Shown here: positions 7,646 through 9,891 of the stretch, in pieces
How positions within the stretch are numbered: the first letter of the stretch is position 1
How the letters are laid out: each line of letters begins with the position of its first letter
Assembly (NCBI RefSeq): GCF_002001085.1
Contig: NZ_MUNU01000019.1
Span: 310,001 to 374,000 of the forward strand
Direction of reading: 5' to 3'
DNA: 64,000 bases
Source: Rhodanobacter sp. B05
GTDB lineage: Bacteria; Pseudomonadota; Gammaproteobacteria; Xanthomonadales; Rhodanobacteraceae
The notes under the pieces: generated by a model
The model's database searches: none
What the model was told of the DNA's origin: nothing
Seen by the model: the letters and a program-made list of their open reading frames with translations, nothing else
Position numbers and translations under genes: made by a program

Positions 7646-8731
7646 TCAGGCGGCCACCTCCGCGCAAAGCAGGGACGCCGCGACGCAGCGGCGCTGGCGT
7701 ACCGCCTGCGCCAGCCGTTGCAGCACCTGCACCGAGCTGTCCCAGTCGATGCAGCCGTCGGTGATGCTCTGGCCGTAGCGCAGCGGCTGGCCCGGCTGCA
7801 GTTCCTGGCGCCCGCCGAGCAGGTGGCTTTCCACCATCACGCCGAGGATGCGTCGCTCGCCGGCGGCTATCCGCATGGCAAGGTCCTCGACCACCTTCGG
7901 CTGGTTCTCCGGGTTCTTGCCGCTGTTGGCGTGGCTGGCATCGATCATTACCCGGGGGCGCAGGCCGGCCTTGTCGATCGCCGCACAGGCGGCATCGACG
8001 CTGGCCGCATCGTAATTCGGCGCCTTGCCGCCACGCAGGATCACGTGGCAGTCGCCATTGCCGCTGGTGGTGGCGACGGCGACCTGGCCGCCCTTGGTCA
8101 CCGCCATGAAATGATGCGATTGCGACGCGGCCTGCACCGCGTCGACCGCGATCTTCACGTTGCCGTCGGTGCCGTTCTTGAAACCGACCGGGCACGACAG
8201 CCCCGAGGCCAGCTCGCGATGCACCTGGCTTTCGGTGGTGCGCGCACCGATCGCGCCCCAGGCCACCAGGTCCGCGATGTATTGCGGCGTGATCATGTCG
8301 AGGAATTCGCAGCCGGCCGGCACACCCAACGCATTGATGTCGCACAACAGGCCCCGCGCCAGCCGCAGGCCCTTGCCGATGTGGAAGCTGCCGTCCAGGT
8401 CGGGATCGTTGATCAGGCCTTTCCAGCCGACCGTGGTGCGTGGCTTCTCGAAATACACCCGCATCACGATCTCCAGCGCATCGCCCAGCTCACGGCGCAG
8501 CGGCGCCAGCCTCCCCGCATACTCCAGCGCCGCGCGCGTGTCGTGGATCGAGCACGGTCCGATCACCACCACCAGCCGGTCGTCGCGGCCGTTGATGATG
8601 GCGTGCAGCGATTGACGCGAGGCGTCCACCGTGGCGATCGCCGCCACCGTGGCCACGCAGTCGCGCATGACCTCGGCCGGCGTGCTGAGTGGGGTAATGA
8701 CGCTGATGCGCAGGTCGTCGGTGGCGTGCAT
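7646..8731 (-). CDS. aroG: 3-deoxy-7-phosphoheptulonate (DAHP) synthase, AroF/G/H type
   Basis: 361 residues, the usual length for class I DAHP synthases, which condense phosphoenolpyruvate and erythrose-4-phosphate at the entry of the shikimate pathway. Landmarks are VVIGPCSIHD (residues 55-64), MRVYFEKPRTTVGWKGLINDP (91-110), PVGFKNGTDG (181-190), DCHVILRGG (227-235) and DASHANSGKNP (264-274). It is preceded by an aromatic-rich leader peptide gene and a strong terminator hairpin, so expression is probably attenuated by charged Tyr/Phe/Trp tRNA. Which amino acid inhibits the enzyme cannot be told here. Confidence 0.95.
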   Translation of the reverse strand: MHATDDLRISVITPLSTPAEVMRDCVATVAAIATVDASRQSLHAIINGRDDRLVVVIGPCSIHDTRAALEYAGRLAPLRRELGDALEIVMRVYFEKPRTTVGWKGLINDPDLDGSFHIGKGLRLARGLLCDINALGVPAGCEFLDMITPQYIADLVAWGAIGARTTESQVHRELASGLSCPVGFKNGTDGNVKIAVDAVQAASQSHHFMAVTKGGQVAVATTSGNGDCHVILRGGKAPNYDAASVDAACAAIDKAGLRPRVMIDASHANSGKNPENQPKVVEDLAMRIAAGERRILGVMVESHLLGGRQELQPGQPLRYGQSITDGCIDWDSSVQVLQRLAQAVRQRRCVAASLLCAEVAA

Positions 8732-8767
8732 GGCGGCTGTCCTGATGGTTTTCGGATGGCGGCCAAC

Positions 8768-8792
8768 AAAAAACCGCCAGGGATGCTGGCGG
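8768..8792 (-). terminator. Intrinsic terminator (attenuator) of the aroG leader
   Basis: On the minus strand a CCGCCAG/CTGGCGG stem (8786-8792 and 8774-8780) with a five-base loop is followed directly by six T (8773-8768). It sits 24 bp after the leader-peptide stop and 36 bp before aroG, inside the presumed leader transcript, where it would end transcription unless disrupted. A GGCGGCGGCG stretch at 8844-8835, right after the aromatic codons, is complementary to the CCGCC arm and could form the antiterminator. Confidence 0.85.
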
Positions 8793-8816
8793 TTCGGTGT
8801 GATGGTGTCGATCAGT

Positions 8817-8900
8817 TCATGTCGATCGCGCGCACGCCGCCGCCGGTGGCTTCGGATAGCCGTAAAACCAGAAATACAGGCGGGTGGTGGCGGAGTGCAT
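8817..8900 (-). CDS. aroG leader peptide (27 residues, aromatic-rich)
   Basis: A 27-codon reading frame from ATG 8900 to TGA 8817. Residues 9-15 are YFWFYGY, that is six aromatic codons (three Tyr, two Phe, one Trp) in seven, an extreme bias in GC-rich DNA. It stands in front of the terminator and aroG, exactly as leader peptides do in ribosome-mediated attenuation (compare pheL and trpL). Ribosome stalling at these codons when aromatic aminoacyl-tRNA is scarce should favour read-through into aroG. No clear Shine-Dalgarno precedes the ATG. Confidence 0.82.
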   Translation of the reverse strand: MHSATTRLYFWFYGYPKPPAAACARST

Positions 8901-8907
8901 GGCGCCA

Positions 8908-8935
8908 TTGATAGCACAACAGACGTCCAAATCAA
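8908..8935 (-). promoter_or_regulatory. Candidate sigma-70 promoter for the aroG leader
   Basis: On the minus strand TTGATT (8935-8930) and TATCAA (8913-8908) are spaced by 16 bases. Transcription from it would begin at or just before the leader ATG at 8900, which would make the leader message leaderless or nearly so and would explain the missing ribosome-binding site. Weak consensus, so this is a prediction only. Confidence 0.4.
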
Positions 8936-8967
8936 ACTGGCCATGATCCGGGCGATAGACTGGGCGC

Positions 8968-9891
8968 ATGCCCTCGCCTTTCGAACTGTTGACCCGCCCC
9001 GCCCGCGAACCCCTGCGTCGCTGGGTGCTGAGTGCGTTCCCGCGCGCCGATACCGGCAGCCTCGACTACGACCACCCGCCGGGCGACCCGGGCCTGTTCG
9101 GCCCGCGCAGTGCCACCTGGCGGGTGCACGCCGACTTCCCCGGCATGCTGGCCGGCGGCCTCGCCGCGCTGACCCTGCAGACCCTGCACCCGCGGGCGCT
9201 GGCCGGCGTATGGGATCACTCCAATTTTCGTGGCGATCTGCTGGGCCGGCTGCGTCGGACGACAGCCTTCGTCGGCGGCACCACCTACGCGCCTCGCGCC
9301 CAGGCCGCGGCATTGATTGCACACGTGCGGCAGATCCATGGCCACATCGTCGGGCACGCCGAGGATGGCCAGCCGTACTCGGCCAACGACCCCCATCTGC
9401 TGACCTGGGTGCACGTGAGCGAGGCGTATAGTTTCCTGCAGGGTTACCGCCGCTACAGCCACATCGCCTTGCCGCCGGATGCCGCCGACCGCTACTACGG
9501 CGAAGTGCGGCGGATCGCCGAGTTGCTCGGTGCACGCGACGTGCCAGCCTCCGAACACGAAGTTTTCGATTACTTCCGCCGGATTCGGGCCGAACTGGCC
9601 TATACCGGGCGCTCGCGGGTGGTACTCGGCCTGCTGGCGCAGGTGCGCCTGCCGGTGCCGGCAGCCGGTCCGTCGCGCGATCTGTTCCTGCTCGCAGGCA
9701 ACGCCCTGCTGCCGGACTGGGCCAAGACGATGCTCGAGCACACCCCGCGGCAGCGGCGCCAGGCTCGATTCGCTGCCCGCGCGCTATGGTCGATCGCGCC
9801 GGTGTTCCGCGCCGCGTTGCGCGACGGCATCGCCAGCCGCGCCTGCCGGCGCATGGATATCCCGCCGGAGCAGCTGCAGCGCTGGACATAG
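8968..9891 (+). CDS. MpaB-like oxygenase (DUF2236)
   Basis: 307 residues. The DUF2236/MpaB pattern is visible: TLQTLHPRALAGVWDHS, then FVGGTTYAPRAQA, HVRQIHGHIVGHAEDG and DPHLLTWVHVSEAYSFLQGY, which carry the histidines thought to bind haem in latex-clearing-protein-like oxygenases. No signal peptide is evident. It is divergent from the aroG leader, with about 67 bp between the starts. The substrate is unknown. Confidence 0.85.
   Translation: MPSPFELLTRPAREPLRRWVLSAFPRADTGSLDYDHPPGDPGLFGPRSATWRVHADFPGMLAGGLAALTLQTLHPRALAGVWDHSNFRGDLLGRLRRTTAFVGGTTYAPRAQAAALIAHVRQIHGHIVGHAEDGQPYSANDPHLLTWVHVSEAYSFLQGYRRYSHIALPPDAADRYYGEVRRIAELLGARDVPASEHEVFDYFRRIRAELAYTGRSRVVLGLLAQVRLPVPAAGPSRDLFLLAGNALLPDWAKTMLEHTPRQRRQARFAARALWSIAPVFRAALRDGIASRACRRMDIPPEQLQRWT

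Follow-up and report, generated by a model that had tools for sequence, protein, structure and literature searches.

The gene aroG of Rhodanobacter sp. B05, which encodes a type I 3-deoxy-7-phosphoheptulonate (DAHP) synthase, is in all probability controlled by a ribosome-mediated transcription attenuator. The parts that can be read in the sequence are a promoter-like box, a leader peptide gene with a run of Phe, Tyr and Trp codons, a GGCGG motif after this run, a competing terminator and aroG itself, whose product belongs to the pathway of the amino acids in the run. Regulation of this kind is already known; the element described here is a new, well conserved case with a type I isozyme as its target. 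In the open-licence literature, judged by title or the start of the abstract and with subscription papers outside the scope, no paper reports this leader. Vitreschak et al. (2004) are said to have surveyed proteobacterial attenuators, and the aroR–aroF attenuator of Corynebacterium glutamicum was reportedly described by Neshat et al. (2014).

The stretch of DNA that was analysed, 64,000 nucleotides in length (the window), carries the element on its minus strand. A preliminary description had pointed to a 27-codon frame with the run YFWFYGY, followed by a stem, six T and then aroG, and all of these are present. The leader open reading frame (MHSATTRLYFWFYGYPKPPAAACARST) extends from 8900 to 8817, the sensor codons Tyr-Phe-Trp-Phe-Tyr-Gly-Tyr from 8876 to 8856, the terminator from 8795 to 8768 and aroG from 8731 to 7646. 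The 361-residue aroG product scores 528.9 bits against TIGR00034 (cut-off 173.2) and also matches PF00793. Across the six frames of the window, YFWFYGY is the sole stop-free stretch of seven codons with at least six aromatic codons, and 40 first-order Markov resamplings of the window yielded no comparable stretch. No Rfam family, whether an amino acid operon leader, a T-box or another, matches the feature; the lone match is a chance-level SorX hit outside it, at 9086–9148 (12 bits, gathering cut-off 46.6, E = 7.4). The divergent neighbour on the plus strand (8968–9891) encodes an MpaB/Lcp-type oxygenase domain protein (PF09995), and its start lies 68 nt from that of the leader.

We searched 299 genomes of the order Xanthomonadales, found aroG in 91 and read the upstream DNA for 90, leaving out G069. 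Both an aromatic frame and a terminator, on whose retention in related genomes the preliminary description had staked its case, are kept in 89 of these 90 regions. The leader frames have 22–28 codons with at least five aromatic residues in nine and occur in three families; each of the 89 is followed by a perfect-arm inverted repeat of 6–11 pairs plus a T run, taking the best repeat found per locus. Phe, Trp and Tyr codons occur together in the run of all 89 leaders, a mixture remarked on before for the window and recovered here by a leader search that did not require it. The commonest forms of the run are YFWFYGY (17), FYFWYYGF (16) and FYWYYF (11), and the YFWFYGY pattern matches 26 of the 299 genomes as opposed to none for its backwards control. 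One locus of the window's own genus (L036, genome G224) has aroG and neither a leader frame nor a five-T run within 420 nt upstream. Codon use in the runs is distinctive: Phe is encoded by TTT in 175 of 207 cases, compared with 11 of 158 in 30 aroG genes, and Tyr by TAT in 113 of 268, compared with 28 of 152, counts that come from related and not independent genomes. We can only guess that these rarer codons sharpen stalling, or that their low G+C content avoids mispairing.

Scanning a collection of 84,980 genomes with a DNA pattern that combines the run and GGCGG gave at least 119 matches. Among the 119 matches listed, 115 have aroG and a terminator just downstream, and in the remaining four the stored DNA ends 71–176 nt beyond the motif. 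Titles accompany 80 of the listed matches and assign 76 of them to xanthomonad relatives, including [Pseudomonas] boreopolis, which we take to be one, and four to other organisms. The same leader and aroG are found in records of Kaistia dalseonensis (L131) and of Phenylobacterium (L150), Rhodospirillales (L196) and Eremiobacteraeota (L199) metagenome-assembled genomes, with AroG about 70–76% identical (for L131 over only 161 residues). The leader in these four records could stem from horizontal transfer or from misbinned contigs.

The terminator is built from segment 3 (GAACCGCCAG, 8786–8795), its 5′ arm as assigned by covariation, folding and a terminator scan, and segment 4 (CTGGCGGTTT, 8771–8780), its 3′ arm. 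The helix CCGCCAG-loop-CTGGCGG is extended by A–U and G–U pairs to ten pairs (8795–8771), and the T run (8773–8768), evident from the sequence and from the terminator scan, comprises six T, of which the first three are also paired. This is the sole terminator-like site in 8600–9100, a region for which shuffles give a mean of 0.2. By RNA folding, which had been suggested as a check, the leader RNA is more stable than all 200 of its dinucleotide shuffles (z = −3.15). The 89 genomes contribute 78 different leader segments to an alignment in which 97.8% of cells in the terminator helix are paired and two-sided changes occur at three pairs. Its covariation score was reached by none of 500 shuffles, although the best slid version came close (0.102 versus 0.121), and the count of pairs with two-sided changes was reached by 63 of 500.

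Segment 2 (8832–8844), assigned from its invariance, pairing and fold, is the predicted 5′ arm of the antiterminator, with its GGCGG core at 8844–8840. It often has the same sequence as the terminator 3′ arm and is able to take the terminator 5′ arm. The GCGG columns are invariant in 78 of 78 alignment rows, and the five base pairs that link the core to segment 3 (2:3) are each present in 77 or 78 of these rows. Because the core of segment 2 hardly varies, covariation of 2:3 is uninformative (among 500 shuffles, 173 match it in pairs with two-sided changes, 71 in cells with such changes and 43 in covariation score). Constraint at the RNA level is indicated by the codons of segment 2: its Ala codon reads GCG, without a change at any position, in each of the 66 usable rows (the other 12 of the 78 had out-of-frame gaps and were dropped), the Ala codons of 30 aroG genes being more often GCC (701) than GCG (575), and synonymous recoding weakens 2:3 pairing from a mean of −15.6 to −11.8 kcal/mol. 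Compared with synonymous versions, 2:3 pairing reached p ≤ 0.5 in 73 and p ≤ 0.05 in 2 of 75 leaders, these sequences being related and not independent.

An upstream sequence, GGCGGCGGCG (8844–8835), which contains the GGCGG core, had earlier been put forward as a possible antiterminator arm, and folding agrees with this assignment. In the window RNA from 8847 to 8785, that is, with the 5′ part and the terminator 3′ arm left out, GGCGG pairs with the terminator 5′ arm, as it would before the 3′ arm is made. With a ribosome placed on the last aromatic codon and segment 4 again left out, folding of the RNA ahead of the ribosome gives 2:3 helices of at least 5 bp in 75 of 75 distinct leaders. Adding segment 4 to the window RNA makes the terminator the favoured fold, even in RNA that lacks the 5′ part, so the order of folding must decide antitermination. 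The antiterminator and the terminator share segment 3 and are, at the sequence level, mutually exclusive. Segment 1 (8886–8898) is the predicted partner of segment 2 when no ribosome is stalled, and the 1:2 hairpin is present in the minimum-free-energy fold of the window. We considered selection on 1:2 as a protector hairpin and found little support for it: with segment 1 recoded synonymously, p ≤ 0.05 was obtained in 5 of 75 leaders; recoding the segment 2 side gave 18 of 75, a result qualified by the fact that this side also serves 2:3. The attenuator postulated before aroG is upheld by its presence in 89 of 90 upstream regions, the covariation of the terminator and the near-invariant core of the antiterminator.

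The spacing of these parts suggests how they would work together. A ribosome extends about 12–13 nt past the first base of the codon in its A site. GGCGG, or a variant of it with one base changed, mostly follows the last aromatic codon at 14 nt (72 of 89 leaders); the other distances are 11 nt (11 leaders), 17 nt (2) and 20 nt (4), and in 79 of the 89 the end of the GGCGG core is separated from the stop codon by 20 nt. By this geometry, GGCGG would stay open in most leaders whichever codon of the run the ribosome stalls at, whereas a ribosome at the stop codon would stand between segments 2 and 3. When charged tRNA-Phe, tRNA-Tyr or tRNA-Trp is scarce, the ribosome trailing RNA polymerase would halt in the run, and GGCGG, just ahead of its leading edge, could pair with the terminator 5′ arm before the 3′ arm has been transcribed. 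The 2:3 pairing would then allow the polymerase to continue into aroG. When all three charged tRNAs are abundant, the ribosome would reach the stop codon, usually 20 nt past GGCGG and 20–35 nt before the terminator, and keep the antiterminator arms apart, so that the terminator folds and transcription ends. The enzyme regulated in this way would be the type I isozyme.

Translation of the leader peptide probably takes place on a leaderless mRNA, a point on which the preliminary description is silent. Reading from the sequence, we predict a promoter at 8907–8935 on the minus strand, composed of a −35 element TTGATT (8935–8930), a 16-nt spacer and an extended −10 element TGC-TATCAA(T), with the TG at 8916–8915 and the hexamer at 8913–8908. 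Transcription is predicted to start at, or a few nucleotides from, A8900, at or next to the leader ATG. A lenient motif places the TA of a −10-like box 13–15 nt ahead of the ATG in 87 of 89 genomes; when 60 nt were scanned with a −10 matrix, the best hexamer fell at this position in 47 of 89. Promoter and ATG are too close together to accommodate a ribosome-binding site. A strict sigma-70 scan of the window returned no promoter at the leader. Shine–Dalgarno pairing of −6 kcal/mol or better precedes none of the 89 leaders, as opposed to 52 of 89 aroG starts. Together with the position of the −10-like box, this lack of a strong Shine–Dalgarno sequence makes a leaderless mRNA probable. Upstream of leaders in family f2 (for example L062 and L069), about 39–54 nt ahead of the ATG, we saw by eye an inverted repeat that adjoins the upstream side of the −35 element in several Xanthomonas/Stenotrophomonas-type genomes and reads AGTTGC-N4-GCAACT or, in others, GTTGC..ATGAAAC. 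It is absent from the window and is possibly an operator for a second level of control. Leader transcripts that begin with the start codon, as predicted here, are described for trpL of Sinorhizobium meliloti in the available text of PMC7298713 and for trpL1, leuL1, leuL2 and ilvL of Streptomyces lividans in that of PMC8079986. According to those portions, the leaderless starts of these other genes come from transcript data, whereas the Rhodanobacter start is predicted from the promoter position.

To look beyond the order, we took a sample of 321 genomes of the class: 239 have aroG, among them 4 from the order itself. Sixty upstream regions of aroG in other orders, picked among the best matches where coordinates allowed, yielded only three with at least seven aromatic codons in nine, so the leader is not general for aroG. 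Two of these three belong to family f118, in which the pattern FYFWFS is found in 23 of 100 genomes and its backwards control in 80 of 100; the number of matches alone therefore proves nothing, and it is the location before aroG that counts. In 22 of the 23 FYFWFS leaders, aroG lies 196–261 nt downstream, the other one being at a contig end, and in 22 of 23 GGCGG follows 23–27 nt after the start of FYFWFS together with a terminator of the same type. The peptide tail of this leader differs from that in Xanthomonadales. Family f118 perhaps belongs to the Burkholderiales, since its AroG is nearest to the product of a Cupriavidus plasmid gene (76.8%); no such leader was found in the 700 nt before the aroG of a Cupriavidus megaplasmid, the closest plasmid-borne relative. 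In the family of the third region (genome G570), we inspected 20 aroG loci, ten with AroG at least 60% identical and ten at 51–53%. Eight of the former ten have leaders with at least five aromatic residues in nine, one has a leader with four and one was not anchored, and the latter ten have no leader.

A covariance-model search of the class gave matches at E ≤ 0.001 in 37 of 294 genomes, and among the matches listed most span just the 3′ part with the terminator. Whole-model matches outside the order were obtained in G570, G520, G404, G348, G521 and G528, the last two being weak. The G348 match proved false on inspection of the translations, being a terminator between rpoN-like and ribosome-hibernation-factor-like genes. 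Of ten matches at E ≤ 1 in the window's genome, the known site alone combines full coverage of the model with a high score (118.4 bits, with the next at 28.3). The equivalents in the f118 and G570 families indicate that the arrangement is wider than the xanthomonads, with many aroG genes lacking the leader.

We infer that one element would sense the supply of Phe, Tyr and Trp. The codons of a leader do not have to match the signals it responds to, because AroR of C. glutamicum, which contains Phe-Tyr-Phe, responds to Phe shortage and not to Tyr: in the available part of PMC11802643, aroF transcription rises when Phe is limiting and is indifferent to Tyr availability. It is accordingly conceivable, if rather unlikely, that the attenuator is real and that a single amino acid matters, such as Trp or Phe, the other aromatic codons being passengers or serving to slow the ribosome. 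Among the codons of the run, Trp at position 11 varies least (it is kept in all 66 usable rows), as would be expected if Trp were that signal. However, Phe and Tyr interchange freely at positions 13 and 16, and despite these swaps the three aromatic residues are all retained in 89 of 89 leaders. The eight G570-family leaders, found without a fixed pattern, also carry all three, whereas the 23 FYFWFS leaders hold them by construction of the pattern and provide no evidence on three-way sensing.

Conservation beyond the run raises the question of whether the nascent peptide itself helps to arrest the ribosome, the leader being an arrest-peptide switch that senses a free aromatic amino acid. Pro19 (65 of 66 rows) and Arg26, near the leader end (64 of 66), are kept with their third bases free, as such a switch might require. 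Several other positions after the run vary at codon positions 1 and 2 (for example Lys or Met at 18; Leu, Ala, Pro, Thr or Gln at 20), whereas the RNA arm does not change, and f118 has another tail, all of which makes an arrest peptide improbable. The terminator could also be constitutive, or the leader region could have another role, for instance as a small RNA, with the aromatic frame a coincidence; the attenuated trpL leader of S. meliloti does act as a small RNA, according to the available text of PMC7298713. This we consider highly improbable, given that the aromatic run is kept across families at a near-fixed distance from GGCGG and that none of the listed pattern matches with enough stored DNA lacks aroG downstream.

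The aromatic codons had been taken to be in keeping with a single DAHP synthase, but this part of the preliminary description is refuted. A second DAHP synthase, of type II, is encoded in the window's genome (670.8 bits against TIGR01358, cut-off 614.7). Of the 299 genomes of the order, 288 have a type II enzyme, and none of the 91 with aroG lacks it. The attenuated type I isozyme is therefore the less widespread of the two. No aromatic leader or attenuator was seen before the type II gene in the three loci examined. A second PF00793 match in the window's genome was rejected as a further DAHP synthase, since it is 3-deoxy-8-phosphooctulonate synthase; the only other PF00793 match is aroG.

Comparison with known attenuators brings out both common and distinct features. 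In E. coli, the trpL, pheL and pheST leaders have a 5′ UTR with a Shine–Dalgarno sequence, and their sensor codons lie within segment 1. In contrast, the sensor codons of the Rhodanobacter leader lie between segments 1 and 2 and its stop codon between segments 2 and 3. Each E. coli leader addresses one amino acid, whereas the Rhodanobacter leader has three kinds of aromatic codon. In common with the Rhodanobacter element, the E. coli systems have codons for the pathway product in the leader, alternative hairpins and a terminator before the gene. All three are named in PMC11802643. The closest case we found is C. glutamicum aroR–aroF, where an aromatic leader peptide also precedes a DAHP synthase gene and stalling leads to read-through (PMC11802643, PMC7356990, each as partly available). 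It belongs to a different phylum, and its Phe-Tyr-Phe sets it apart, by description, from the Xanthomonadales leaders with their three aromatic residues. An upstream ORF before aroF of Acholeplasma, uORFC-13-1, similarly contains Phe and is followed by a terminator and a DAHP synthase gene; it differs in having at least one Phe and a ribosome-binding site and is reported from Acholeplasma and environmental sequences, in the available part of PMC8632094.

The most specific version of our proposal could equally well prove right or wrong. It holds that a leaderless leader reads all three aromatic aminoacyl-tRNAs through spacings that fit the ribosome footprint (about 14 and 20 nt), such that a stall at each codon of the run counts; that it tunes the type I enzyme on top of a type II enzyme not controlled in this way; and that f118 has an equivalent with another peptide. 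The element would then offer a compact, conserved and testable case in which stalls at different codons of one run have the same outcome, and likewise a case of attenuation on a leaderless mRNA. The small leader gene is one that automatic annotation may well miss. E. coli has three DAHP synthase isozymes under separate repressors. If the proposal is true, xanthomonads and their relatives would set the entry into the aromatic pathway with a single translation-based sensor of three amino acids.
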